Virus record (IMG/VR): IMGVR_UViG_3300036985_005357 | Location: 1 to 45,903 of that record | Direction: 5' to 3' (one strand) | DNA length: 45,903 bases | Source: a virus | Shown: positions 3,067 through 45,097 of the stretch, piece after piece | Layout: each line of letters opens with the position of its first letter | Position numbering within the stretch: position 1 is the stretch's first letter | The notes under the pieces: model-generated | Database searches by the model: none | Told to the model about the DNA's origin: nothing | The model's input: only the letters and a program-made list of their open reading frames with translations | Translations under genes and position numbers: made by a program

Positions 3067-6000
3067 TTATTCGTAAAATGTTCTATCGTCCATTCCAAAC
3101 CTAAATATCATCTTATACTTACTTTCAATGTCATTAGATAATCTTACATTTAAGTAATCTCCTCTAAGTCTATCTCTATGCATGTTTCTGTAGTCTAATA
3201 ATCTATTATCAATAGTTTTATCTGTTTGAGAACAGTTATTTATAAATATTGGTAATCCTGATTTCTCATTTTTAATTAAATTGTACAAATAGTTAAAAGA
3301 GAATTTTCCGTCGATTTCTGATTGAAGAATAGAGACTGACGTAGGATTGTATTGTGGATAATCTATTTGTTGTCTTAAATTATTATTTTGTTGGAAAACA
3401 AGATTTAATTGTCCCGAGTTCTGTGTATTGTTATACACAATAGCTTTATTGAATCCTATTCCAAATCCGTCTGTGTAATCCCACTCACTGTAATACTTTC
3501 TTGCGTCAAGGTAATAAGATATACCATTTAAAACTGAGCCTGTGTACTTTGTCTGTAAACTATAATCAATTGTCCAAGGATAAAGTTTTCCATAAAATAC
3601 TTGGTAACTTGAAACGAATGGTAGATGCGACCATAATCCTAACTCAGTTGAGTCAGAAGAGTAGTTTATACCTGTTTGAAAGTAATTATGGTATCCTATG
3701 TAGTAATTAGGCTTAAACGAATAATAAGATACCCATCCTTCTGTAACAGGACTATATGCCACTGTCCAAGAACATTCTCTAAAATAAGTTGGATCACCTA
3801 ATTCTACCAAAGTAATTCCATAAGTAGTCTCTGTTAAACTACAATCTCCACAAATACTACTTGGAGTCAAATCAACATAACCTTCTTGGCACTCATATGT
3901 TAAAGCGTCCTCATAAAAATATCTCTCAGTTTCTGTTGAATAGATAAAGTTTAAGTCTGTCGTAGAAGTTGCATTTCTAAGCTCTACATCTGTATTATCT
4001 AATATTGCTGCACCGAACATACCCAAACTTCCGAAGTTCTTACCTTCAATCTTCACTGTGTGACAACCTTCTGTTAACTCAATAGGGTATATGTGAACTC
4101 TTTTAAAAGTAGTTGTATCATTACCTGATAAATATCCATGTTGTGGGGATATTACGGTGTGGTCTGATGTCAAAATTACCCCACCATCAACACTAAATCT
4201 AAACTGATTATCCGCTGTTAAAACAACATAATAGGTTTTTGGTGTAACTACATTAATAATGCTAGTTGCTCCATACCAGATATTGTAACCAAAAGATCCA
4301 CTCCATTTTGCTAATTTATTAACCAGACGGTCTACGACAACACCGTTACCTGTCCAAAATAAGTCTGTCAGGTGTTCAAATGTATATCCTGTAGGGGACA
4401 TTCCATCAACGTTACCTGAACCATTTGAATTATAAGCTGAGTATAAAGTTGGTTGATGAAACCCATAAGCTGTACTACCTGCGTAATCAACTACAACAGG
4501 TGTACCAACAGGTTCTTTTGGAGTAAGTGTAACTTTTGTACACACATTTCCAACAAGAGTATAACCTTCTGGGCAAGGTGATTCTACATAAAAACCTATT
4601 CCATCTTCATATGCTAAATCTTCGTTGATTATTGTATAATCTTTTTTAGTTATAAAGAGTCTTTTTAATCTGTCGTCCCACCCCATTGCAAGTCCTAACC
4701 CCTTGAAGTTATTATCTACATTAACTGTTGGGAATGTTCTTAGAATTTTAAATGGTAGGTTTTCCTTAAACCATTTTTCTAGTCCTTTTGTAATTTCTTT
4801 TAATCCTGATCCCCCAGGTTGTAAACTAAATACTTTTCCTCTTTTAGCATCAGCCCAAAAGTGTCCGAAATCACAAGATACTTTTGCATTATGTTGTGCA
4901 CCTCCGTAACCTAGTTGTGTGTTATTAAAGTTAATACTTCTTCCTGTAAATATACCTCCTATTCCTAAATTCTTTATTTCAGGGGTAAGTCTATCTTTTA
5001 ATACGTCTACAGCTCCAAAAATAGAAAGTCCATTAGTAAATCTTGCCAGCACTTGTCCTGATTCAATTCCATCCATTTCGGTAAGAGTACCATTATTTAT
5101 GGGAAACTGATATGCATCTAATGGTTTATACATTAACCAAGGGTCAAGAAGACCATTCTCAGAAACATCTTGTCCACTATACCTTACGGCATTTGGTAAG
5201 TTTGAAAGTTTGTCATAAACCTCCTTACTATAATTAGATGGTAACACCCTGTAGGGTACACTTGAATGTAAGGCAGAGTAAACATCATTATAAAAATAAG
5301 TGTTTGGTTCTCTAATGCTGACATTCTTTTCTTGTGTCCATTCCATTACATCTCCTACATTTGGGTAGAAATTTTCATGGTCTTCCCTTTTTCCATATCT
5401 ATAATTACAGTTTATTTCACTCTCCACTAAGAAGTGTGGTAATCCATAAGAATACAGATAGAACTTTGAAGGAGGTTTTACATACATCTTGTCATCCCCT
5501 GTCAAATACTCTAGGTCATAGTCAGATTTATTAGATGGCCAAACAAACATTGCGACATAATTATCTGTATCATTTATTTGGTAATCAATGTACTTTCTAC
5601 CTGTAGAATCCTCAGGGTTAATATTAAAGTATTTTGAATAAGCAAAAGGTGTCAGTGGTGCTAATCCAAAAGCATCTGTTGTAAAAAATGGAAACTTTCT
5701 TTTTATAGCAAATCTAGAAATAAATACGTCCCCTCCAAGGGCAATATCACAGTCAGATGTAGAAGATAAATCTCCACAAAATCCTGTACTCATCCAAGAA
5801 ATAGAATCTATTTGTCCATACTGAGAAGGTAAGTATTGTTTTAATGCTACATACGGTAAAGCTGTATTTGAGATTAGTGGGTTGCCACTATAAGGGTCTA
5901 TACCGTGACTTCTTCCAACACCTCCATAGCCTCTTCTACTAGATGTGGTAGTTGATATATCGAAGTTGTCATAATTTGAGTATACAGAAGGGTACTTTAT

Positions 6001-9000
6001 ATTATATGTAGGTGCTGCTCCTAAGCCTATAAAAACAGAGTCTTCTCTATCCTTATTATTTACTCGGTTATTTACACCTGTCAATTCATTTTTTAAATTC
6101 CAAAGTCCTTCACGTAAGTATGTAGTATTAGATATACCTCTTAAGGTACTGTCTGTAACACTATTTGGAATAAAATAGTTATAATACCCAACTGCTGTCT
6201 GATAGTAAGCAAAGTTCTCAGGCTTTCCTAAATTCGTTATAATTTGAATCCATTGCAGTCGATATTGCCCAGTTTTATAAATTGCTGCAATAACATATCC
6301 TGCAATAGCTATACCTGCAATAATACTTGCGGCTGGTGCAGAAACTCCACCAGACCCTGCTAATACTCCCCAATCAGAGGATTGCACTAAAACCTCTAGT
6401 AAACTTTCAGCAATAGCTAAACTAGTTGCTAAAGCATATGCATCACTCCCTAATAAAATATAAGTTGGGTGGTTTTTAACTTCATCATAAGATAATTGAC
6501 CCTTTCCAAAAATATAACCTTCTACACTTAACTCACTTGGAAGAGTGGGTTTATGAAAGTGTGTAGTTGGGCTATGAAATGTAAATAGATTATTTGAAGT
6601 GCTACCATATAAATGATTCTGAGATGAACCGTTTCTTGGATCTCCCCCTAAAGTATTTAATGGGTAGTTTGAATACAATTCTTTCTGTACACCATTTGAT
6701 TCATACATATCAAATAAAACACCCTTAGCTACAACAGACTTATTGTATCTTCTGTCCCCTCTAAAAATTTCATACTTCGTTATGTTTAATCTATCTTCTA
6801 ATGTTAGCAAATTATTATTTACCGCAATATCTAAAAAGGCATTTATTACATCAACACTTAAGTTGAACCCTATTGGATATATGACACTTTCCTTGAAGTC
6901 ACCTGGGTTTTGAGACGGATCAACACCATTCTCGTAAGACATATATGGTGCAATCTTAGAATCTGGATACTTATAATGTCTAATATTTGTATCCATAAAA
7001 TTAGTTCCTGCACTAAGTGTGTAGGCTCCACCTCCACCAACTGCTGTTACGTAGTTATCCTCAAATTCAGTTTGCCTTCCTACAGGTATATCTGATTGGT
7101 TAATCACTAAAGAAGATGAGTCAAATAATTCAGAATTACAAGTATACTTATCTAAGGATTCCCAATATGAAAAATTTCCCTTTTTATAAGGTATAGGGTC
7201 ACAATTTCCTAATTTTGGTATTGAGAAAGTACAGCTTGAAGTGTATGTCTCTCTTTTACCAAAACTTAAATTTGTAAATGTTATCTTATTTAAAGTTTGT
7301 TGTTCTCTTTGATAAATATTAAAACAACCACATGGGGGAGTCAATGTATAGTAAGTTTGTACTGTAGCTTTCGTTCCTGCCAAATCCCCTGTCACATTTG
7401 TTATACCAACTCCTGGCTCTAAACTTGTTGGTCCCCTAAAAGTGATAACACCTAAAGCAGATGTCACGATTATATCATGTGCTGAAAGTATGGCTGCTGC
7501 ATGTGTTGTAACAAAATTAGCTGCAGTTGTTGTTAAGTCTGTTGCAAATGTAACCAAGTAATTTGTAGCTACAATAAGAATGTTTGCAGTTCCTGTAGTT
7601 CCACTTAAAGTTATTGTAAACTCTTCGCTACCTCGTATGGGTGAATCTATTACAATATATCCTGTTGTCCCCGAAAAATCTGTTGGGTCAAGTTCTACAA
7701 ATTTATTTGTGTCTCCAACTAGTGTTACATCAGATACCACTCTTGAATAAGATGCAATATCTGTTGTAGATGCACAAGTATCATATACACTTATCCTAAT
7801 AGAGGTTCCAGAGTTATCATCTGAAAAATTACAAAGGATTGGGCTTAACTCAACAATAACCTTTTCAGGACCAGTGAAGTTAAACTTATACCATAATGCA
7901 TTTGTGTGTAATTTAGTTGAATAGTCTGTATAATTTTGAGCTGTAATAGTTGTCTGTAGTCCTGACAAAGCTCCTACAACTCCTTTATTATCTAAGTAAT
8001 ATTTTACATCTACTTGTGGATTAGTCCATGTAGTTAAAACTATTGCAGAAGTACATGCTATATTTGTAGGTAGTGTGCCTCTAGTATAAACAATTTCACC
8101 TGATTTCATGTAAGTTGTTTCAAACACTGTATCTGAAACAGGAGCTCCACCCCCATCAAGTAAAACAGAGTTACAAGTGGTAGGTGCTAACACTCTATCA
8201 TAATCAGCGAATGGAAATGCCTCTTGGACCACTACTTCTGCAGTTGTGCCAATTGCAATAGCTTCTTCTACTTCAAGAACAGCAGTGTCACAGTTGTCTC
8301 CATAATCTGGTGTACAATGATCTACAGCAGTAGATGCATCTGAAATTGCAGTTTGTATGTCAACCCATTGTGGGTCAACTGACGCAATTATAGCAGCAAT
8401 GTTTTGATTTACATATACAGCAATAGGTAGATTTGTTTCTACGTATACTACACCACTTGCAACAATTCCTAATTCTTTTATAGAAGCTCCATCATAAACA
8501 ATGCAACTTGATTCTACAGGTCTAATAACGGTTTCTGTATCTGCATAGGGTGGTACTACACAAACTCCTTCGTCAACCGTAGCTGTATTTTCAAATTGCC
8601 ACCTCAAAGTTCTATCCCCACCTTCGCATAAACTAGTATATGCTAAAATAGATTGAGAATTTAAATTATCAATAACTTCTAATTCACTTGCTGTTGGAGG
8701 TCTTGGTATTAATACAAAATTTGGTGTGTGATACCCACCTTTCATTGAAAATCTTATAGAGTATGGATATACTTCATCTCGCATAGCTGTCTTGAAGTTG
8801 GAGATGTTAGCTCCATCCATATATAAATCCTCATTTGCTTGCATAGTACCCCACTTAGCAAAACTTCCAAGAAGGTTTGCAATAGGTTGTAAGTTAAGTT
8901 CTTTTTGTGTTTCTAGCCCATAATGAAATAAATACCCATTACTTTGTGCTAACCCTTTTGATTTCTTATAGAAAGTTTTTATTTGGTTTATATCTTCTAC

Positions 9001-10038
9001 TGTTGTTCTAATACTATTTGTTAGAGATGCAACTATAATAGTGTTGACATCTGTTGGGTAGGTTCCATATTTAAAGTATTCAACTGCACCATCTAATCCT
9101 GATCTATGAATAACTGATAATGTATAGTTTCTATAATCTAAATCTAGTCCTGTAATATTTACCTTAAAAGATTTATTTGTTATATAGTCTAGGTTTGTCT
9201 GGTCAAGAATGTTATTATTCCGGTCATGTATTGCAAGGGGATTTGTCATGGAAAAATACTCTGAAATGATATTTCCACTTGCATCTGAATATGCAATAGC
9301 TACTTCATACATTCCCGCTTTTAAATTACCTCCGTCTTTTATTGAGTCTATCTGTACACAAGGGTGTTCAAATAACTTATCAACCCTCATCTTATCTACA
9401 TCAAGACAAGTTTCTGTGACATCTCCTGTACAAAGGTCAATATCCTGTGTGTATGTGTCTAAGTAATCAAGCTTAATATATCTTGATGGATTTAAATTGT
9501 CTGTAAAATAAATAACCTTTCCAACTGTTTCGGATTTAATGTGAATATTATTCTCAAATATTGGATAATCAATATTAAAGTTCAAAACTCTAGTTGCTGT
9601 AGAAGTTAACTCACAGTAGTCTGATACAAGTGTGTAATAAGAGCATGTATTTGTTTGTGTAGTGTTCTCTAAGCCATTTTCTAATACAACTGTTATATTG
9701 CATTCACATGCACTCTCAACTTGTGTCAGAGAAGTATAATTGTGGAAACTATTTATGTAACCTATTTCAGAAATATTTGTTGTAGGGTTGACTAAAAAGA
9801 AATATGTTCTTTCTCCATTTATATCAAACTTATGTCCTATTACTTTATACCCTGTCTTAAAACCAGTACACTTAATATTTGAACCCTCATTTTGCAACAT
9901 AACCACTCCGTTTCCATGTTCATCTTGGTAGTTACCATTTAACATGAAAGAATATTCTTGTGCAGAAAGTGTTGATTCATGGGCATCTCTGTTCATTCCC
10001 ATTTTAGGATTCTCAATCCCTTTAGCTTGTTTTCCCAT
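3067..10038 (-). CDS. Giant tail-hub (muzzle-like) structural protein, 2323 aa
   Basis: The largest gene of the window. Its position after connector- and IHF-like proteins and before lysozyme and cargo-like genes matches the tail stabilisation/muzzle protein of crAss-like phages, which closes the tail tip (analogous to P22 gp10). The protein is rich in beta strand, Asn, Tyr and Cys, with no signal peptide; a hydrophobic Ala/Gly-rich stretch lies near residues 1215-1260. Residues about 805-905 hold a module (TANILIVATNYLVTFATDL ... TGDLAGT) also found in the 754-residue protein. Residues about 1900-2005 (TADNQFRFSVDGG, HIYPIELTEGCHTVKIEGKN) look like a PA14-type sugar-binding sandwich. Start and upstream stop share one base (TAATG). 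The role is inferred from context. Confidence 0.8.
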   Translation of the reverse strand: MGKQAKGIENPKMGMNRDAHESTLSAQEYSFMLNGNYQDEHGNGVVMLQNEGSNIKCTGFKTGYKVIGHKFDINGERTYFFLVNPTTNISEIGYINSFHNYTSLTQVESACECNITVVLENGLENTTQTNTCSYYTLVSDYCELTSTATRVLNFNIDYPIFENNIHIKSETVGKVIYFTDNLNPSRYIKLDYLDTYTQDIDLCTGDVTETCLDVDKMRVDKLFEHPCVQIDSIKDGGNLKAGMYEVAIAYSDASGNIISEYFSMTNPLAIHDRNNNILDQTNLDYITNKSFKVNITGLDLDYRNYTLSVIHRSGLDGAVEYFKYGTYPTDVNTIIVASLTNSIRTTVEDINQIKTFYKKSKGLAQSNGYLFHYGLETQKELNLQPIANLLGSFAKWGTMQANEDLYMDGANISNFKTAMRDEVYPYSIRFSMKGGYHTPNFVLIPRPPTASELEVIDNLNSQSILAYTSLCEGGDRTLRWQFENTATVDEGVCVVPPYADTETVIRPVESSCIVYDGASIKELGIVASGVVYVETNLPIAVYVNQNIAAIIASVDPQWVDIQTAISDASTAVDHCTPDYGDNCDTAVLEVEEAIAIGTTAEVVVQEAFPFADYDRVLAPTTCNSVLLDGGGAPVSDTVFETTYMKSGEIVYTRGTLPTNIACTSAIVLTTWTNPQVDVKYYLDNKGVVGALSGLQTTITAQNYTDYSTKLHTNALWYKFNFTGPEKVIVELSPILCNFSDDNSGTSIRISVYDTCASTTDIASYSRVVSDVTLVGDTNKFVELDPTDFSGTTGYIVIDSPIRGSEEFTITLSGTTGTANILIVATNYLVTFATDLTTTAANFVTTHAAAILSAHDIIVTSALGVITFRGPTSLEPGVGITNVTGDLAGTKATVQTYYTLTPPCGCFNIYQREQQTLNKITFTNLSFGKRETYTSSCTFSIPKLGNCDPIPYKKGNFSYWESLDKYTCNSELFDSSSLVINQSDIPVGRQTEFEDNYVTAVGGGGAYTLSAGTNFMDTNIRHYKYPDSKIAPYMSYENGVDPSQNPGDFKESVIYPIGFNLSVDVINAFLDIAVNNNLLTLEDRLNITKYEIFRGDRRYNKSVVAKGVLFDMYESNGVQKELYSNYPLNTLGGDPRNGSSQNHLYGSTSNNLFTFHSPTTHFHKPTLPSELSVEGYIFGKGQLSYDEVKNHPTYILLGSDAYALATSLAIAESLLEVLVQSSDWGVLAGSGGVSAPAASIIAGIAIAGYVIAAIYKTGQYRLQWIQIITNLGKPENFAYYQTAVGYYNYFIPNSVTDSTLRGISNTTYLREGLWNLKNELTGVNNRVNNKDREDSVFIGLGAAPTYNIKYPSVYSNYDNFDISTTTSSRRGYGGVGRSHGIDPYSGNPLISNTALPYVALKQYLPSQYGQIDSISWMSTGFCGDLSSTSDCDIALGGDVFISRFAIKRKFPFFTTDAFGLAPLTPFAYSKYFNINPEDSTGRKYIDYQINDTDNYVAMFVWPSNKSDYDLEYLTGDDKMYVKPPSKFYLYSYGLPHFLVESEINCNYRYGKREDHENFYPNVGDVMEWTQEKNVSIREPNTYFYNDVYSALHSSVPYRVLPSNYSKEVYDKLSNLPNAVRYSGQDVSENGLLDPWLMYKPLDAYQFPINNGTLTEMDGIESGQVLARFTNGLSIFGAVDVLKDRLTPEIKNLGIGGIFTGRSINFNNTQLGYGGAQHNAKVSCDFGHFWADAKRGKVFSLQPGGSGLKEITKGLEKWFKENLPFKILRTFPTVNVDNNFKGLGLAMGWDDRLKRLFITKKDYTIINEDLAYEDGIGFYVESPCPEGYTLVGNVCTKVTLTPKEPVGTPVVVDYAGSTAYGFHQPTLYSAYNSNGSGNVDGMSPTGYTFEHLTDLFWTGNGVVVDRLVNKLAKWSGSFGYNIWYGATSIINVVTPKTYYVVLTADNQFRFSVDGGVILTSDHTVISPQHGYLSGNDTTTFKRVHIYPIELTEGCHTVKIEGKNFGSLGMFGAAILDNTDVELRNATSTTDLNFIYSTETERYFYEDALTYECQEGYVDLTPSSICGDCSLTETTYGITLVELGDPTYFRECSWTVAYSPVTEGWVSYYSFKPNYYIGYHNYFQTGINYSSDSTELGLWSHLPFVSSYQVFYGKLYPWTIDYSLQTKYTGSVLNGISYYLDARKYYSEWDYTDGFGIGFNKAIVYNNTQNSGQLNLVFQQNNNLRQQIDYPQYNPTSVSILQSEIDGKFSFNYLYNLIKNEKSGLPIFINNCSQTDKTIDNRLLDYRNMHRDRLRGDYLNVRLSNDIESKYKMIFRFGMDDRTFYE

Positions 10039-10898
10039 TAGATATTAGTTTCGTATTGCAAGCTTTCTAATTGATTTAGTCTCTTCATCTTCTGAAAAGT
10101 GGACGGTTTTAACTTGGACATTTTTAACTCCGTTGAAGCGTTTCTTAAAGCTATGCTTTCTTGTCGTTCATACACTTGGTATAGATTTGCTAATCCTTGT
10201 GCATCATTATTTCCCATCAACCTCTCAGCAAGTCTTCTCTTTAAGTGGTATTCCAAGTAAACCTCTAAATGTCCATTCTTAGTTTCAGGTATCTCGATAT
10301 TTCCATCTTCATCAACAGGTAGTCCATAATATTGCATATAGATGTGACCTGCATTAAAATTTGCTTGTAAGTTATAATTTATAATAACTATCTCGTTAGG
10401 ATTATCTCTAACAATTTTATTTCTACAAGTTTTGTGACAATTACTCTTAACAAAAGACTTTCCAAGTGTCAATAATGTCGGATTGCTATAATTAAATTGT
10501 ACCTTATTACCATTGTAGTACAAATTTTCTCTAATAACTTTCTCAGTGGTTTTCTCACATGAAGCATTACATTCATCCCAAACTTTGGTATTAATTGTAC
10601 GTTCCCTGTAAACTACAGAGTTTATTAAGGAATCTTGTTCTACATCCACACCTGTTGTAAATCCTGCTGGATTACAAAGGAAGGCAGCATATAAACTGAA
10701 AAAGGACTGTGGTAAAACTGCATATCCATTAGCCACTTCAACCATAGTTTCTTGAAGTTGCATTATGTCGTTTCCAAATCTTTTTAATCCTAATGTTATA
10801 TCTCTATATAAAGATGTATCATCTATTAACCCAGCATCGTCATACTTACTAAGGTCGCTTTTTACTTGGGCTATGATGCCCTCAACATTGCTATACAT
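10038..10898 (-). CDS. Tail adaptor/connector-like structural protein
   Basis: A 286-residue mixed alpha/beta protein with helical ends. The N-terminus (IIAQVKSDLSKYDDAGLID) and C-terminal helices (EYHLKRRLAERLMGNN onwards) with a beta-rich middle resemble the P22 gp4-like tail tubular or ring proteins annotated in crAss-like phages. Four Cys residues cluster in the middle (CNASC, CHKTC), a possible metal or disulfide site. It shares one base with the next gene and follows the IHF-like gene by one base. The assignment is an inference from position and overall character. Confidence 0.7.
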   Translation of the reverse strand: MYSNVEGIIAQVKSDLSKYDDAGLIDDTSLYRDITLGLKRFGNDIMQLQETMVEVANGYAVLPQSFFSLYAAFLCNPAGFTTGVDVEQDSLINSVVYRERTINTKVWDECNASCEKTTEKVIRENLYYNGNKVQFNYSNPTLLTLGKSFVKSNCHKTCRNKIVRDNPNEIVIINYNLQANFNAGHIYMQYYGLPVDEDGNIEIPETKNGHLEVYLEYHLKRRLAERLMGNNDAQGLANLYQVYERQESIALRNASTELKMSKLKPSTFQKMKRLNQLESLQYETNI

Positions 10899-16194: not shown

Positions 16195-16362
16195 ATGAAG
16201 TATTACGCTGTCAGAGTTGGTAGAATTATTGGGATATACTTTCTGTGGAAAGATTGTGAAGCCCAAACTAAGGGTTTTCCAGGAAGTGAATTTAAAGCTT
16301 TCACTTCCATAATGGATGCCGTAGAATATATAGGTTTTGAGAGAAGCTTATACGGTAAGTAA
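16195..16362 (+). CDS. Mini-protein with viroplasmin/RNase H1 N-terminal-like domain
   Basis: A 55-residue plus-strand gene within a minus-strand region. The sequence KYYAVRVGRIIGIYFLWKDC followed by EAQTKGFPGSEFKAFTS closely follows the caulimovirus viroplasmin domain (Caulimo_VI), which in RNase HI is the N-terminal domain that binds RNA-DNA hybrids. No catalytic RNase H domain follows. The ATG at 16195 is chosen because the domain begins there; an in-frame extension back to 15991 crosses the direct repeats and looks non-coding. Its last 15 bases overlap the convergent endolysin gene. No strong promoter is visible. Confidence 0.65.
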   Translation: MKYYAVRVGRIIGIYFLWKDCEAQTKGFPGSEFKAFTSIMDAVEYIGFERSLYGK

Positions 16363-16998
16363 TTTGTAAAACTCCTTAGTAATCTCTATACGCGAATCAA
16401 GCCCGTTGACTCCTCCGTTAATTCTTTTAGTTAGTTTAGTTATAGATTCTGTACTTACAGACTTAGCTATATCCCACAACTTATTCTTAGCAAAGAAAAA
16501 TAATGCACTTTCAAAATAATACTTAACAGCAACTTGCGATGGATCTTTCATAATAGATTGGTCCTTTATAAAGTCTGCAAAGGCTTGGTAATTTGCTCTA
16601 CCAGTCAACTGCAATGATCCTCGCCCCCTGTACAAACTTCCATCCCCTGAGGCTTCGTTACCATTTCCGTTTTGGTTAGCATATACAAAATTTGCCACGG
16701 CAACGCTGTTACCAGCTAAGGCTTTAGCTCTATCCTTCTCTGTAGATGATAACACTCTATCCTTATTTATGTCAAAATCTGATTTAAAGATTTGAAGCAT
16801 TCTTTCCACAGAGTAATTAGTGTTCTCCACTCCTGTTTTAAATCCTCCTGTTTCGTGATAACATTGCCCAAAGAAATTTGCTGTTTGCTCATTACTTAAT
16901 TTATAAAAAGCTTTAGCCTTTAATAAGCATTCTTTACCAAACTCACCATCAGGAGCTGCTCCAATTTTTTTCTGAAATTCTTTTATTGCTTCACTCAT
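16348..16998 (-). CDS. Endolysin, GH19 chitinase-like
   Basis: A 216-residue peptidoglycan hydrolase. After about 35 residues that resemble a shortened peptidoglycan-binding helix (IKEFQKKIGAAPDGEFG) comes a GH19-like domain: FFGQCYHETGGF with Glu49 as catalytic acid, ANQNGNGNEASGDGSLYRGRG with Glu115 as the second acid, and the conserved GRGSLQLTGRANY and RINGGVNGLDSR segments. No signal peptide, so release depends on the holin. It is the last gene of the lysis cassette and overlaps the spanin-like gene (ATGA). Confidence 0.88.
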   Translation of the reverse strand: MSEAIKEFQKKIGAAPDGEFGKECLLKAKAFYKLSNEQTANFFGQCYHETGGFKTGVENTNYSVERMLQIFKSDFDINKDRVLSSTEKDRAKALAGNSVAVANFVYANQNGNGNEASGDGSLYRGRGSLQLTGRANYQAFADFIKDQSIMKDPSQVAVKYYFESALFFFAKNKLWDIAKSVSTESITKLTKRINGGVNGLDSRIEITKEFYKLLTV

Positions 16999-17426: not shown

Positions 17427-17655
17427 TGGTTTTTGTTGTTGTTATTCGGCTCCCAAGAGCGTCTGTTAATTTACTTCCTAAAGCTACTCCTACAAAAGTC
17501 GCAAACACTTCATATTTAAATCCATTTTTGTATAAATCGTAAAGTGCCATATTTACAGCTAATATCCATGCTGAGAACATTGTTAAAGATGTTCTAGAAA
17601 ATTTTCCTTCCTTCTTTAAAGTGTCTCCCAATATTATTGATAGTAACTCTCTCAT
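17419..17655 (-). CDS. Small membrane protein of the lysis cassette
   Basis: A 78-residue protein with one or two membrane segments (TMFSAWILAVNMALYDLY and FATFVGVALGSKLTDAL). It starts at an ATGA overlap with the patatin gene and overlaps the spanin-like gene by eight bases. Comparable small membrane proteins accompany lysis genes in flavobacterial phages. It could be a second holin or a holin regulator, but the sequence does not decide this. Confidence 0.65.
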   Translation of the reverse strand: MRELLSIILGDTLKKEGKFSRTSLTMFSAWILAVNMALYDLYKNGFKYEVFATFVGVALGSKLTDALGSRITTTKTND

Positions 17656-18581
17656 CTTAATGTGTTGTAGAAGAAGTATTTCATTTTATCTTTATTAATC
17701 TTTGCAGAAGTTTCTCCGTCAGATATGAGATTTTGAATGTTTTCTTTTGATGCGTCATCAATCTTTCCAGAGGATTTCTTTATAATGCTATTACACCTCA
17801 CGTAGATTCCAAATCTATTTCCTCCATTAAGGTTTGGTAAAATAGCATATAGTTGCTTTAATAGATAGTCTGTTGTCTGTGTGGCTTCTGTAAGAACTAT
17901 GTTCATTGTTGGACTTGCCATGGTAGCAATACCTCCGTTAGCAGCACCTTTTGTAATAGGTTCCTCAATACATCCAGTAGAAAAAGATAAAATATCTATC
18001 TTATTATAACCATCTTTAACACTTTCAATGAAAGCCATAAGAGAAGGATTATTAACATACAATCCTCCGTCAACATACCTGTCTCCATTTATTTCAGTTG
18101 CTTTAAAATATGTAGGTGCAGAAGCACTACTTCTTATTACGTCAAATAATTTATAATTCTCAGAATCACCTAGCTTAGCTTTTGAAGACTTAAAAATCTC
18201 TCCTTGTTTCTTTGTGGCATTATACGTTGGTATTAATATATTAGCCTGGCAATCCTTTAATGTAAGTTCTTTTGTATACTCCTTTATAATGTGATTAAAA
18301 TATGTATCATCATACTTTGGACGAAATATCCCCCATCTAAAAAAATCTTTGTGGAAAATACCTTCTCCATGAATAACGTATAAATCTAGTATTGCATCAG
18401 TGGTATAACCAATTGAAAGTAGTGTAGCAATTATAGCTCCTGTACTTGTTCCTGCAATAAGGTCGAAATAGTCTTTGAGAGGAGTTTTTACCATCTTTTC
18501 AAAGTCTCTAAGTTGTATCAATACAGATACACTCTTTATTCCTCCACCATCAATTTCTAATACATTAATCGTTTTTTTCAT
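17652..18581 (-). CDS. Patatin-like phospholipase
   Basis: A 309-residue lipid acyl hydrolase of the patatin family. Visible are the oxyanion Gly-rich loop DGGGIKS (11-17), the nucleophile elbow GTSTG with Ser46, and the catalytic DGG with Asp171 (RYVDGGLYVNNP), completing the Ser-Asp dyad. Members cleave phospholipid acyl chains. No signal peptide or membrane segment is present, so the enzyme is made in the cytoplasm. It overlaps the holin gene by 17 bases and the small membrane gene by four, within one operon under the lysis promoter. A role in attacking membranes at lysis is likely by context but unproven. Confidence 0.9.
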   Translation of the reverse strand: MKKTINVLEIDGGGIKSVSVLIQLRDFEKMVKTPLKDYFDLIAGTSTGAIIATLLSIGYTTDAILDLYVIHGEGIFHKDFFRWGIFRPKYDDTYFNHIIKEYTKELTLKDCQANILIPTYNATKKQGEIFKSSKAKLGDSENYKLFDVIRSSASAPTYFKATEINGDRYVDGGLYVNNPSLMAFIESVKDGYNKIDILSFSTGCIEEPITKGAANGGIATMASPTMNIVLTEATQTTDYLLKQLYAILPNLNGGNRFGIYVRCNSIIKKSSGKIDDASKENIQNLISDGETSAKINKDKMKYFFYNTLR

Positions 18582-41357: not shown

Positions 41358-41388
41358 TTTGTAGTTAAGTTTAGTTTTTGTATATTTG
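41358..41388 (+). promoter_or_regulatory. Rightward early promoter
   Basis: The plus strand reads TTTG, 19 bases, TATATTTG, a perfect consensus. The box ends four bases before the A of the ATG at 41392, so the mRNA would start at or next to the start codon. Confidence 0.82.
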
Positions 41389-41391
41389 CAT

Positions 41392-41604
41392 ATGGATTAT
41401 GCAGATTATTTTCACGCAACTTGGAATGAGATTTCTGAGAGTATTGTCACAGAAGAATATTACGACAAAAATCAGGAATTGTTTGAAGCAGTTACTTTTG
41501 ACTTCTTTCAGTTTCATTCTGATGGAGGTAACTTTCCACCTGTCTTAGCAAAATTTGCTATTGAAAGGATGATTAGTGGGATGCTTTGTTGGGGAATTAG
41601 GTAA
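41392..41604 (+). CDS. Small early protein, 70 aa
   Basis: First rightward gene. The ATG at 41392 is chosen; the TTG two codons before it lies inside the -7 box. The product is acidic with many Tyr and Phe (MDYADYFHATWNEISESI, FDFFQFHSDGGNFPPVL) and a short helix at the end. No family was recognised. Small acidic proteins made first are often host-takeover factors; this is only a suggestion. Confidence 0.6.
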   Translation: MDYADYFHATWNEISESIVTEEYYDKNQELFEAVTFDFFQFHSDGGNFPPVLAKFAIERMISGMLCWGIR

Positions 41605-41616
41605 TCCATAATATAT

Positions 41617-41647
41617 TTTGATAGTAAACAAAAAATTATTATATTTG
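41617..41647 (+). promoter_or_regulatory. Promoter of the polymerase-like gene leader
   Basis: TTTG, 19 bases, TATATTTG on the plus strand, a second perfect consensus copy. The transcript would begin near 41652 and meets a terminator about 70 bases later. Confidence 0.82.
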
Positions 41648-41671: not shown

Positions 41672-41724
41672 CCGGGGGGAGGATTTTGTTTTGACCAACT
41701 ATTTGCCATCCCCCGGTATTTTTT
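41672..41724 (+). terminator. Terminator/attenuator in the leader
   Basis: CCGGGGGGAGG (41672-41682) pairs with CCATCCCCCGG (41706-41716): ten pairs including one G-T, with one A-A mismatch, then TATTTTTT. The 23-base loop contains TTTTGACCA (41689-41697), which is complementary to the start region of the next gene. Confidence 0.8.
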
Positions 41725-41759: not shown

Positions 41760-43133
41760 ATGGTCAAAAAGAAAAGAGTACCTAGTAAGTACGTGTATAA
41801 GCTATACACAATTCCCGAAGAATTAAATAACGATATATTAGCACTTAAATTATCTAAGATGCAATATGAAAAAATTATACACTTTGTAGGTATTCTTAAA
41901 AAGAAAGCCTTCCAGCAAGGTGGAGATTTTTCATTTCCTGTAATGTTACCTAAAAACTACTTATCAACTTTCTTATCATCTAATTACGCTAGATATACAA
42001 ATCTACTAGATTCGGCTAAAATTGTAATAAGAGATGATTACTACAATCAGAGTAAATCTATAAGTAAAAGTTATGCCTTAAATAATAAGTATTTTCCTAT
42101 AGATAATATTAGTATAAATAAAGGAGTAAAGAACAAGATAAAATTGGTTAGTATCTCATGTAAGAGAATATCTACTAAATTAAGTCCTGATACTGAGGAT
42201 ATTATAAGGGAGGCAAAAAAGGAGTTAAATACCTTAAAAATTGATGAAAATCTTGTCCGAATAGCATCTCAAAAATGTATAGATGACATATCAATTGAAG
42301 ACTTTAAAACCCGAACTCAAATCAGCGAGCAAAAGTTTCAAGTTAGGATGTTTGTAGGAGCTGAAATAAAAAACAGATGGATTACTAAAGAAGATGCCCT
42401 TGAGTTAGCCAGGTTAAATGGTAAAGAACTTATTCAGGATAAGAAAGCTTTTTATATAATGACCCCTGAAGAGTTTATTGCTAGAAAGAAGTTGATGACT
42501 CAAATATCTCACGAAGATGCTATAACTAGGCTTGTAAAAAAATATTGGACCGTTTCTAGAAATACTACAAATAACAGATTAGATACAAATTTAACTAACC
42601 TTGCAAGTCCTATATTGGATGTTATAATGGAATTAAATAATTTAAGTCAGATAGATTTAGGAAACTCTCAGTTTGCCTTACTTGCAAGCACTCTTCCATC
42701 TGATTTAGTTCACCCAACTACATTAGAATTTAAAGACGCAGCGGCAAGAGGTGTTTTGTATGAACTTGTACAATCTAAGCTAAACCTAACTAGTAGAAAG
42801 CGAGCAAAACAGACTACCTTTGAATTACTATTCTCATCTCATAAGAATAAATCTGAGGATTTGTCAAGAATGCGAGTGGAATTTCCAGAAGTAATGAATT
42901 ATATAGATACATTTAAAATTAAAAATGGGCATAAGAATTTCTCAATCTCCTTACAAAAAATAGAATCTGATCTATTTATAGATAATATTCTTAGGCAACT
43001 TTCCTCTTTAAGTTTAGGTTGCCTTACAAAACATGACTCAGTTATTTGTAAAAAAGAAGATTTAGGCGAAGTACTTGGAATAATGAATCTTATATTTAAG
43101 TCGAAAAATATTAAGGGAAATCTTGTTTATTAG
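41760..43133 (+). CDS. Predicted polymerase-like protein with family A-type palm motifs
   Basis: A 457-residue basic protein. Residues 1-240 are helical and unassigned. From 260 the motifs resemble family A polymerases: SRNTTNNRLDTNLTNL (266-281), motif A-like SQIDLGNSQFALL (Asp299), motif B-like SRKRAKQTTFELLF (345-358), SLQKIES (397-403), and motif C-like TKHDSVI (Asp426). There is no exonuclease domain. A family of unstudied phage and plasmid proteins with 'D..NSQ' and 'HDS' motifs appears related. As an early gene next to recA it could be a replicative, primer-forming or repair polymerase. A TAG-TAA-TAA stop follows. The activity is a prediction. Confidence 0.6.
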   Translation: MVKKKRVPSKYVYKLYTIPEELNNDILALKLSKMQYEKIIHFVGILKKKAFQQGGDFSFPVMLPKNYLSTFLSSNYARYTNLLDSAKIVIRDDYYNQSKSISKSYALNNKYFPIDNISINKGVKNKIKLVSISCKRISTKLSPDTEDIIREAKKELNTLKIDENLVRIASQKCIDDISIEDFKTRTQISEQKFQVRMFVGAEIKNRWITKEDALELARLNGKELIQDKKAFYIMTPEEFIARKKLMTQISHEDAITRLVKKYWTVSRNTTNNRLDTNLTNLASPILDVIMELNNLSQIDLGNSQFALLASTLPSDLVHPTTLEFKDAAARGVLYELVQSKLNLTSRKRAKQTTFELLFSSHKNKSEDLSRMRVEFPEVMNYIDTFKIKNGHKNFSISLQKIESDLFIDNILRQLSSLSLGCLTKHDSVICKKEDLGEVLGIMNLIFKSKNIKGNLVY

Positions 43134-43168: not shown

Positions 43169-43375
43169 ATGGCAATAAGGCAAAAAGAAATATATGAATT
43201 ACCACTATATCCTATCACTTATTTAGGAATAATATACACAGAAGATACAGTTGATGAAAAGTTTGATGCTTTCTACCACACACTAGAGAGTGTCAGAGAT
43301 GATGGAGGAATTTATGCATTTGATGGAATGATTGTTTATCCTGATGGGTCAATTACAGATGAAAGTGAGTACTGA
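43169..43375 (+). CDS. Hypothetical protein, 68 aa
   Basis: A 68-residue acidic protein of unknown function (ITYLGIIYTEDTVDEKFDAF, then IYAFDGMIVYPDGSI). It begins 35 bases after the polymerase-like gene and overlaps the homing-endonuclease gene by 17 bases. No domain was recognised. Confidence 0.6.
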   Translation: MAIRQKEIYELPLYPITYLGIIYTEDTVDEKFDAFYHTLESVRDDGGIYAFDGMIVYPDGSITDESEY

Positions 43376-44096
43376 AGAAGAAAGGTGGGCCTCTATTGAG
43401 GGATTTGAAGGTTACTATGAGATAAGTGATTATGGAAATGTACGTAGCCTAGACAGAGTTATAGTTAACTCTTTGGGATATACAAGTTTTGTAAAAGGGA
43501 GAACCTTAAAACCAGATTCGAGCGATAGGTACTTAAGAGTTAATCTTGTAAAACAGGATAAAAGAAGAAAATGTCCTGTTCATGTATTAGTTGCACAATA
43601 TTTTGTACCCAATGATGACCCTATTAATAAAACACAAGTAGATCACAAAAAGGAAGGTAATGGAAAGGATAATCACTATAAAAACTTACAGTGGTTGACA
43701 CCTAGAGAGAACAGTGTAAAGCACGTCCTATCTAAGAAAAAAGCATCAAAATATATAGGAGTTCACCGAAGTCATACAACCTCAACTAAGTGGAGTGCAG
43801 TAATTACACTAAATAAAAAAGGTAGGCACCTTGGAGTATTTATTACTGAAGAGGAAGCCGCTGAAGCTTACCAAAAAGCATTGAAATATATAAACTTATT
43901 TGGAAAACTTCCACCTCCTAATGTAAGGAAGCTAACAGTAAAATACCCAAAGATCTCAATATATTATAATAGGGATAAAAAAGCTTTCGTAGGATATGTG
44001 TATTATAAACACAATATAAAAAAGCACATTATAGCTAGAAAAGATAGAGTAGAAGTTGAGAGAGTATGTAACGAGTTTTTAAATAAAATCAAATAA
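43359..44096 (+). CDS. Homing-type HNH endonuclease (NUMOD4-HNH-AP2)
   Basis: A 245-residue protein starting at ATG 43359; earlier ATG 43344 and TTG 43332 are possible but overlap the previous gene more. Residues about 8-50 form a NUMOD4 motif (WASIEGFEGYYEISDYGNVR). Residues 85-125 give HNH with VDHKKEGNGKDNHYKNLQWL and PREN. Residues about 127-175 are an AP2 DNA-binding domain (KYIGVHRSHTTSTKWSAVIT ... GVFITEEEAAEAYQKAL), and a second AP2-like stretch follows. Such enzymes cut DNA and copy themselves into related genomes. It lies between two small genes and recA and interrupts no visible gene. Confidence 0.88.
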   Translation: MKVSTEEERWASIEGFEGYYEISDYGNVRSLDRVIVNSLGYTSFVKGRTLKPDSSDRYLRVNLVKQDKRRKCPVHVLVAQYFVPNDDPINKTQVDHKKEGNGKDNHYKNLQWLTPRENSVKHVLSKKKASKYIGVHRSHTTSTKWSAVITLNKKGRHLGVFITEEEAAEAYQKALKYINLFGKLPPPNVRKLTVKYPKISIYYNRDKKAFVGYVYYKHNIKKHIIARKDRVEVERVCNEFLNKIK

Positions 44097-44098
44097 AA

Positions 44099-45097
44099 AT
44101 GGCAAAAGAAAAGAAAGAAGAAGTGGTTAAAAAAGATGTGTTACAAGAAGCACTAGACAAGCTTAATAAAGCAATGGGTGCTGGATCAGTCTATGAGTAT
44201 AAGAATTTCCAAGGTGAAGAAAAGGAAAGAGTTAGTTCAGGGTCCTTAAGTATTGATTATATTATTGGTGGTGGATATGTGAAAGGGTTGATGCACTATA
44301 TCTCAGGGGGATTTTCATCAGGTAAGTCTACACTATGCTTACATGCAATTAAGGAGGTACAGAGACTTGGTGGAAAATGTGCATATATTGATTCAGAATA
44401 CTGTCTAGATTCTACCTACGCCTCATCTATAGGTGTTGACATGGGTGAATTAATTGTTGCACAACCAAATTGTATAGAGGATGGTTATCAAATTTTAATT
44501 GATTTAGTTGAAACAGGTAAGATAGATTTAGTGATATTCGACAGTATTGCAGCAGCTCAAACAAGAAAAGAGTTGGAAGGAGATGTAGGAGACCACACTA
44601 TGGGTATTAAGGCAAAACTTAACTCTGTAACATTCCCAAAAATCTGCCAAACCTTAAAGAAAAGCAACACAATAGGTTTGTTTATAAACCAACAAAGAAT
44701 GAAGATGGGTATAGCTTACGGCTCTCCAATTACAGAACCTGGAGGCGAAAGTGTGAAGTTTTATCCTTCTATAAAGATAGAAGTTAACCAATCTACAAAA
44801 CAACAAGATGGTGCTGGAGACATTTCAGGAAATTTAGTAAAAGCTAAGTGTACAAAAAATAAAACATCTAGACCTTTCTTAGAGGCTTCATATGTAATTA
44901 ACTACGGAGAAGGTGTTGATTATGTGCATGAAATTTTTGATTTAGGACAGAAGTTTGGATATATTAAAAGAGGTGGTGCTTGGTTTAGTTACGAAGAAAC
45001 TTCCTTAGGACAAGGTGAAGCTAATGCAATAGCAATGTTAAAAGATAACCCAGACTTAGTAGCTATCTTAGATGTACAAATTAGATCAAATTTTTAA
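44099..45097 (+). CDS. recA: RecA recombinase
   Basis: A 332-residue RecA-family strand-exchange ATPase. Walker A is SGGFSSGKST (69-78, the usual form being GPESSGKT), the catalytic Glu100 stands in YIDSEYCLD, Walker B is DLVIFDSIAA (143-152), and loop L1 has EGDVGDHTMGIKAK. INQQRMKMGIAYGSP (196-210) and EPGGESVKFYPSIKI carry the coupling Gln and loop L2. The N-terminal polymerisation helix is short and the C-terminal domain reduced. It would coat single strands to drive recombination-dependent replication or repair. It starts two bases after the homing endonuclease. Confidence 0.95.
   Translation: MAKEKKEEVVKKDVLQEALDKLNKAMGAGSVYEYKNFQGEEKERVSSGSLSIDYIIGGGYVKGLMHYISGGFSSGKSTLCLHAIKEVQRLGGKCAYIDSEYCLDSTYASSIGVDMGELIVAQPNCIEDGYQILIDLVETGKIDLVIFDSIAAAQTRKELEGDVGDHTMGIKAKLNSVTFPKICQTLKKSNTIGLFINQQRMKMGIAYGSPITEPGGESVKFYPSIKIEVNQSTKQQDGAGDISGNLVKAKCTKNKTSRPFLEASYVINYGEGVDYVHEIFDLGQKFGYIKRGGAWFSYEETSLGQGEANAIAMLKDNPDLVAILDVQIRSNF

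Follow-up and report, generated by a model that had tools for sequence, protein, structure and literature searches.

A Bacteroidota phage protein of 457 residues that reads, from its letters alone, like a family A polymerase stripped of its exonuclease domain raises two questions: is it a working polymerase, and if so, what is it for? The initial annotation had offered three functions, namely a minimal replicase, a primer-making enzyme, or a dead polymerase turned regulator. Here, we investigated the gene in its virus record of 45.9 kb, which is called the window below.

The gene and its neighbors

The polymerase gene and recA lie in the same plus-strand cluster. The features of this region are as follows.

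41386..41604, plus strand: conserved ORF of 72 amino acids upstream of the polymerase; aligned to L068:7679-7903 of a sister phage and kept in sister contigs L068-L070
41760..43133, plus strand: compact family-A-like polymerase coding sequence, ATG start, 457 amino acids; supported by conservation, a fold model, and dN/dS values against relatives that are well below 1
43169..43375, plus strand: conserved ORF of 68 amino acids downstream of the polymerase; kept in sister phages
43332..44096, plus strand: HNH (homing-type) endonuclease gene; PHROG HNH endonuclease, E = 6e-30
44099..45097, plus strand: RecA/UvsX-like recombinase; PF00154, E = 6e-71; phrog_97, E = 2e-68

Every motif named in the initial annotation was found in the polymerase frame in the order given there, and the length of 457 residues holds. 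The further claim that the gene heads an early operon with recA holds in part. RecA does lie downstream in the same cluster, but a conserved ORF of 72–75 amino acids comes first, which makes the polymerase gene second in the early cluster. The interval from polymerase to recA holds the 68-residue ORF, for which no Pfam match was found, and the HNH endonuclease gene. The latter is present only in the window; L068-L070 have none at that place. These three sisters, whose full-length polymerases came from a profile-guided scan at 57–59% identity, share the order TerL ... 75-residue ORF, polymerase, 63–72-residue ORF, RecA. The portal and terminase of the window match PHROG families, and its terminase is nearest to those of Cellulophaga phages phi17:2 and phi4:1 (39%).

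Upstream of the polymerase start, a Bacteroidota-like TAnnTTTG promoter element is found at position 41640 of the window. Between it and the start lies a strong GC-rich stem-loop (~41672–41717) followed by a T run, terminator-like in appearance, which is possibly an attenuator or a short RNA gene. Neither L068 nor L070 shows an evident counterpart of the stem-loop at this position, and for this reason we kept it out of the mechanism proposed below.

Relatives of the protein

Searches of Pfam, PHROGs, NCBIfam, and PADLOC, and of the PDB by both single sequence and profile, returned no convincing match to the 457-residue protein. PF00476 matched neither the window protein nor its relatives, and a scan of IMG/VR by the window protein alone found no relatives. 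Tblastn against phages and plasmids gave distant homologs, carried by a 735-kb phage, by Aeromonas phages, and by a Hymenobacter plasmid. Profile-guided scans then yielded 55 IMG/VR loci and, from genomes, 16 loci, mostly in Bacteroidota. The conservation figures given below are based on an alignment of 38 rows of family members, called A6.

Predicted fold of the polymerase core

An AlphaFold2 model built with A6 has a pLDDT of 92.3 and a pTM of 0.88. A Foldseek search of the PDB with this model returned the large fragments of Taq and Bst and T7 DNA polymerase (E of 5e-5 to 1e-3, probability 1.0). With VIA-align, the best 50 PDB rows are all family A DNA polymerases, with Z scores of 13.2–15.1 over 242–321 residues, mostly within 140–457. 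The top row is 5dkt, with 254 residues aligned at 3.8 Å over 141–457. A search of viral models gave as best matches two phage proteins of ~400 amino acids, one of them named putative DNA polymerase I, followed by divPolA2 proteins. In the predicted model, D299 stands at the end of strand 295–300 and D426 at the turn of the hairpin 421–424/427–431, both where the palm match puts them. On the strength of this model, the 457-residue protein almost certainly has a family A polymerase fold.

No exonuclease domain, active or remnant, was found N-terminal to the polymerase; a winged helix is located there instead. The profile comparisons and structure prediction thus bear out the earlier reading of a palm and fingers with motifs A, B, and C and of a missing exonuclease domain.

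Conserved residues of the active site

The conserved motifs of the core are located as follows.

42558..42602, plus strand: motif 1 region RNTTNNRLDTNLTNL with R273, invariant in 38/38 rows; aligned to TGR of Pol I
42645..42695, plus strand: motif A QIDLGNSQFALLASTLP; D299 as metal ligand and Q304 at the E710 steric-gate position, both invariant in A6
42795..42833, plus strand: motif B (O helix), R346-xxx-K350-xxx-F354-xxx-F358; K350 invariant and F358 conserved in at least 90% of rows; column for column with RxxxKxxxFxxxY of Pol I
42951..42968, plus strand: LQKIES helix with Q399 (at least 90%) and E402 (invariant); Q399 at the Q849 position of Pol I
43032..43040, plus strand: motif C, H425-D426-S427 (in KHDSVI), with D426 as second metal ligand; at least 90% conserved and aligned to HDE of Pol I

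The segment around R273 resembles the template-contacting arginine hairpin of Pol I (TGRLSS..NL). D299 lies in the motif A-like segment QIDLGNSQFALL, and the four spaced residues of motif B are found in RKRAKQTTFELLF. In all 38 rows of A6, R273, D299, N302, S303, Q304, Y334, K350, and E402 are invariant; T276, N277, T279, G331, F358, P376, K386, L398, Q399, S403, H425, D426, and S427 are conserved in at least 90%. The motif pattern is therefore unlikely to have arisen by chance. All members of a set of 75 distinct sequences have Q at +5 of motif A, a count that is partly circular because NSQ was the criterion for their selection, and most have HDS as motif C.

Counterparts of the Pol I residues R668, D705, R754 (here R346), K758, F762, Q849, H881, and D882 are all kept. 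This residue-by-residue equivalence is based on the hhalign alignment, the fold match, and the known roles of these Pol I residues. In motif A, hhalign proposed a register of NSQ with YSQ of Pol I, which is a two-residue slip. We prefer the pairing of D299 with D705, as D299 lies at the end of a strand, with the helix beginning at 303, and position 301 is not an Asp.

Purifying selection acts on the polymerase gene. For the pair L068 and L070, which are 84% identical, dN is 0.098 and dS is 1.49 (near saturation); between the window and L068, dN is 0.32 and dS is 2.3 (saturated). These figures bear on the proposal of a degenerate, non-catalytic polymerase that has become a DNA-binding regulator. 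Such a regulator would suit the small size, the winged helix, the missing exonuclease, and the place at the start of the early cluster, but the catalytic positions are all either invariant or at least 90% conserved and the purifying selection is strong. Together these make a dead polymerase very improbable, and we consider the protein very likely to be catalytically active.

N-terminal domain and thumb insertion

The N-terminal half had been left unassigned in the initial annotation. Using AlphaFold2, Foldseek, VIA-align, and hhalign, it can now be divided into a predicted winged helix, thumb helices, and an insertion that resembles the N-terminal domain of initiation factor IF3 (IF3-N).

41787..42089, plus strand: N-terminal winged-helix domain, approximately residues 10–110, from a separate AlphaFold2 model
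42303..42551, plus strand: IF3-N-like beta-beta-alpha-beta-beta insertion in the thumb region, residues 182–264, from Foldseek and hhalign

Residues 1–140 folded alone give a winged helix with a pLDDT of 88.8 and a pTM of 0.80, consisting of helices 33–54, 65–72, and 76–85 and wing strands 89–92 and 104–107. The nearest PDB chains are 4pql, which is top in both Foldseek and VIA-align, 4pt7, and 5kbj. We take these to be staphylococcal plasmid RepA structures, that is, plasmid initiator N-domains. The matches are weak, with a Foldseek E of 0.06 and Z of 6.7 for 4pql and 0.34 and 6.0 for 4pt7; across the initiator N-domains, E runs from 0.06 to 1 and Z from 5.7 to 6.7. The N-terminal domain has no Pfam match. 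From the model, only the winged-helix class is a safe assignment; the weak likeness to initiators, including the RepA_N type, may stem from DNA binding in general.

For the thumb insertion, Foldseek returned 1tif with a probability of 0.99 and a target TM-score (TMt) of 0.60, but with an E of 0.18. Profile comparison by hhalign gave E = 6.6e-5 against four IF3 sequences and 7.5e-5 against six, with a score of 25.6, whereas 100 column shuffles reached at most 14.0. A single family member compared with Pfam IF3_N gave E = 0.05. The insertion is present in a clade of the 14 closest members; the huge-phage branch, L087, L089, and L090 lack it. T7 DNA polymerase (gp5) also has an insertion in its thumb, which binds thioredoxin, and the position of the IF3-N-like insertion recalls it.

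Carriers of the family

The family is carried by phages, huge phages, prophages, a plasmid, and small integrated elements. In a drawn sample of Bacteroidota genomes, 20 of 395 hold a member at an E of 1e-5 or better. The family has no name in Pfam, NCBIfam, or PADLOC, and most members also lack one in PHROGs.

We used these carriers to weigh whether the protein is the main replicase of its phage. In favor of this role, the 71- and 84-kb sister contigs lack a PF00476 match, and neither they nor the window match PF00136, but the window and the sister contigs are fragments. A confident DnaB match was likewise not found in the window or the sister contigs. Phage phi17:2, the nearest by terminase, carries a regular PolA, far from recA, as well as a DnaB-like helicase, and a search with the family profile found no member in it. 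In addition, PolB or PolC is present in 7 of the 8 huge-phage records with a member (six with PolB, one with PolC and a PolA-like match). As most of the huge-phage carriers have a regular polymerase, the family member is probably not their main replicase and is expected to serve a specialized role. A main replicase is thus highly unlikely, and the earlier proposal of a minimal replicase becomes unlikely as far as phages are concerned.

In bacterial genomes and contigs, the gene is found in prophages with a serine recombinase (L071, L083, and L085) and in small tyrosine-integrase elements (L087 and L089), with a similar order of integrase, HTH, winged helix, and polymerase in L087. The L089 element (3538–10074) is 6.4 kb long, lies in a MAG labeled Bacteroides fragilis, and encodes an integrase, HTH proteins, several small proteins, and the polymerase. 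Direct repeats of 92 bp mark its ends; they are spaced 6,445 bp from each other, and one overlaps tRNA-Ala(ggc). No clear att pair of direct repeats was seen flanking the L087 and L090 elements. A Walker A motif is absent from all L089 ORFs of at least 60 amino acids, which leaves the polymerase as the only recognizable replication enzyme of the element. This suggests that the polymerase takes part in the replication of its carrier.

The main rival to a role in priming is that of a recombination or repair polymerase, which would fill gaps or extend 3' ends together with the neighboring RecA and would make no primers. In the window and in L068-L070, RecA is encoded two to three genes further downstream, a neighborhood that suits repair as well as replication, and most huge-phage carriers have a regular polymerase. 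Repair has also been suggested for the related divPolA2 proteins by Yutin et al. 2024 (PMC11348598). However, no RecA was seen among the neighbors in the prophage and small-element contexts read, and the L089 element fits replication better. We regard repair as an unlikely alternative to an accessory polymerase that makes or extends primers.

Two short frames were also noted. A Pol I-like frame of ~430 amino acids matching PF00476 is found in a Galbibacter genome (L110, G005:C15:617237-618409), and another compact frame of this kind (W07:C1:393932-394588) is present in huge phage LR756511, where a member of the polymerase family lies 1–2 kb away.

Relation to known compact family A polymerases

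Comparison of the family with a divPolA2 alignment by hhalign gave a probability of 97.7 and E = 1.4e-12 over 178 columns in the palm. Against bacterial Pol I, one comparison gave a probability of 69 and E = 4.3e-5 and was colinear, with R273 and motifs B and C in register. We equated divPolA2 with phrog_4756, since AUR84708, the divPolA2 example cited by Yutin et al. (PMC11348598), matches this profile. The window protein has no match to phrog_4756, and only 4 of 38 relatives do (best E, 2.3e-6). A maximum likelihood tree of the palm region places the family, divPolA2, and Pol I in three separate groups (supports of 95/96, 100/99, and 100/100); it is midpoint rooted with long branches, and 37 family rows fall on one side of the branch with support 95/96. 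Based on the tree and the phrog_4756 result, we describe a separate family, which by sequence comparison is related to divPolA2 and is not a member of phrog_4756.

The two families share a compact family-A-like palm (~430 residues in divPolA2), the lack of an exonuclease, an N-terminal globular domain, and tailed-phage carriers that also have a regular polymerase. They differ in motif A, which is D-[FY]-[KS]-x-x-[EH] in divPolA2 and DxxNSQ here, and in their hosts, mostly gammaproteobacteria versus Bacteroidota. The IF3-N-like insertion has no clear profile similarity to divPolA2. As a side observation, divPolA2-type proteins of Vibrio phage ICP1 are annotated as hypothetical; one of them (L117, ORF100) has 555 amino acids versus the usual 430.

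The TV-Pols of Iyer et al. 2008 (PMC2579912) likewise have a minimal A-family core with the Arg hairpin, two palm Asp residues, fingers RxxxK, and no nuclease; they are carried by mobile elements and viruses and are predicted primase-polymerases. Their N-terminal domain is all-helical, whereas that of the window family is a winged helix, and their fingers Asp is not evident in the window family, where the position holds GxxY(E/D) in A6. No D5 helicase was seen among the neighbors read, and L089 contains no Walker A motif. Iyer et al. list Bacteroidota TV-Pols (PMC2579912), and the window family possibly overlaps with these. The family profile found nothing in Microcystis phage Ma-LMM01, a cited TV-Pol carrier, with hits allowed up to an E of 10.

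CCPol-MP, a mobile-element A-family polymerase, has been shown experimentally to be a dNTP-using primase (PMC7581432). With it and the PolA-SSB primases (PMC7581432, PMC10061031), the window family shares a mobile-element A-family core and the lack of a working exonuclease. Whereas E710 and a portion of the exonuclease domain are retained in CCPol, the window family has Q304 and a winged helix. CCPol works together with a helicase and with an SSB-like protein, which it requires for priming, and no such partner was recognized for the window polymerase. We do not file the window family under divPolA2, TV-Pol, or CCPol, and consider it related in kind to the TV-Pols and CCPol.

With Pol I (Klenow, Taq, and Bst) and T7 gp5, the protein shares the predicted fold of palm, fingers, and thumb. 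It differs from Pol I in the missing exonuclease, the replacements E710 to Q304, Y766 to F358, and E883 to S427, and the IF3-N-like thumb insertion.

Probable product of the enzyme

Two of these replacements touch on whether the protein could be a single-subunit, T7-like RNA polymerase that makes primers or early transcripts. In motif C, the protein has the HDS of T7 RNA polymerase where Pol I has HDE; E710 is replaced by Q; and the huge-phage branch has a DxYGR sequence like the DxxGR motif of RNA polymerases. Nonetheless, the top structural matches are all DNA polymerases, with no RNA polymerase among the best 50 VIA-align rows, and mitochondrial RNA polymerase 6ymv was matched by Foldseek at an E of only 0.04. 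An hhalign comparison with a single T7 RNA polymerase sequence gave no match, and no promoter-recognition module was seen. T7 RNA polymerase uses tyrosine Y639 for ribose selection, and the window protein has F at this position. An RNA polymerase is thus improbable, although the same suggestion has been made for divPolA2 (PMC11348598).

We consider it probable that DNA is the main product. CCPol primes with dNTPs when paired with MP, and the F762 position is one of two CCPol-conserved residues linked with dNTP preference (PMC7581432). F354 at this position and the DNA-polymerase-like fold speak for dNTPs; Q304 leaves sugar selection uncertain.

Proposed role

Taken as a whole, we lean toward an accessory, element-encoded, catalytically competent family-A-like polymerase that makes or extends primers and is guided by its winged helix. 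The protein would combine a winged helix at its N-terminus with a short thumb carrying the IF3-N-like insertion and with fingers and palm that retain the two-metal active site. The winged helix may bring the polymerase to phage DNA at an origin, a junction, or a primed single strand, and the palm would make or extend primers at that site. The product would be DNA rather than long RNA, and bulk replication would be left to a regular DNA polymerase. The step to priming or initiation is the weakest, and here we see the chances as evenly balanced. Of the three functions first proposed, a primer-making enzyme would nevertheless be the best fit.

A bolder version, in which the single 457-residue chain combines origin recognition by an initiator-type winged helix with de novo primer synthesis and DNA extension in a family A palm, without an SSB partner, is doubtful. 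If true, it would represent a further primase architecture besides those of DnaG and AEP, distributed among Bacteroidota phages, and a single chain able to serve 6-kb integrative elements as their only replication enzyme. The 6.4-kb L089 element offers a minimal system in which the function of the polymerase could be addressed by direct knockout. With its wide distribution, the family also enlarges the small group of compact A-family polymerases known from mobile DNA. Its lack of an exonuclease, Gln steric gate, and fused winged helix make it useful for understanding how A-family cores come to make DNA, RNA, or primers.

Additional observations in the window and sister phages

The terminase ORF of L070 (L070:2290-5424) has 1045 amino acids compared with 681 in the window and matches the window terminase in two pieces, which suggests that it holds an inserted element of the intein or homing endonuclease type. 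Another sister phage (L096:1312-15585) has very large late-strand proteins of 1931 and 1953 amino acids, as crAss-like phages do. Finally, the window encodes at 17652-18581, read by eye, what looks like the start of a patatin-like phospholipase (DGGGIKS ... GTSTG) beside a membrane protein. An apparent cell-wall hydrolase lies nearby at 16348-16998, and the three may possibly form an unusual lysis cassette.
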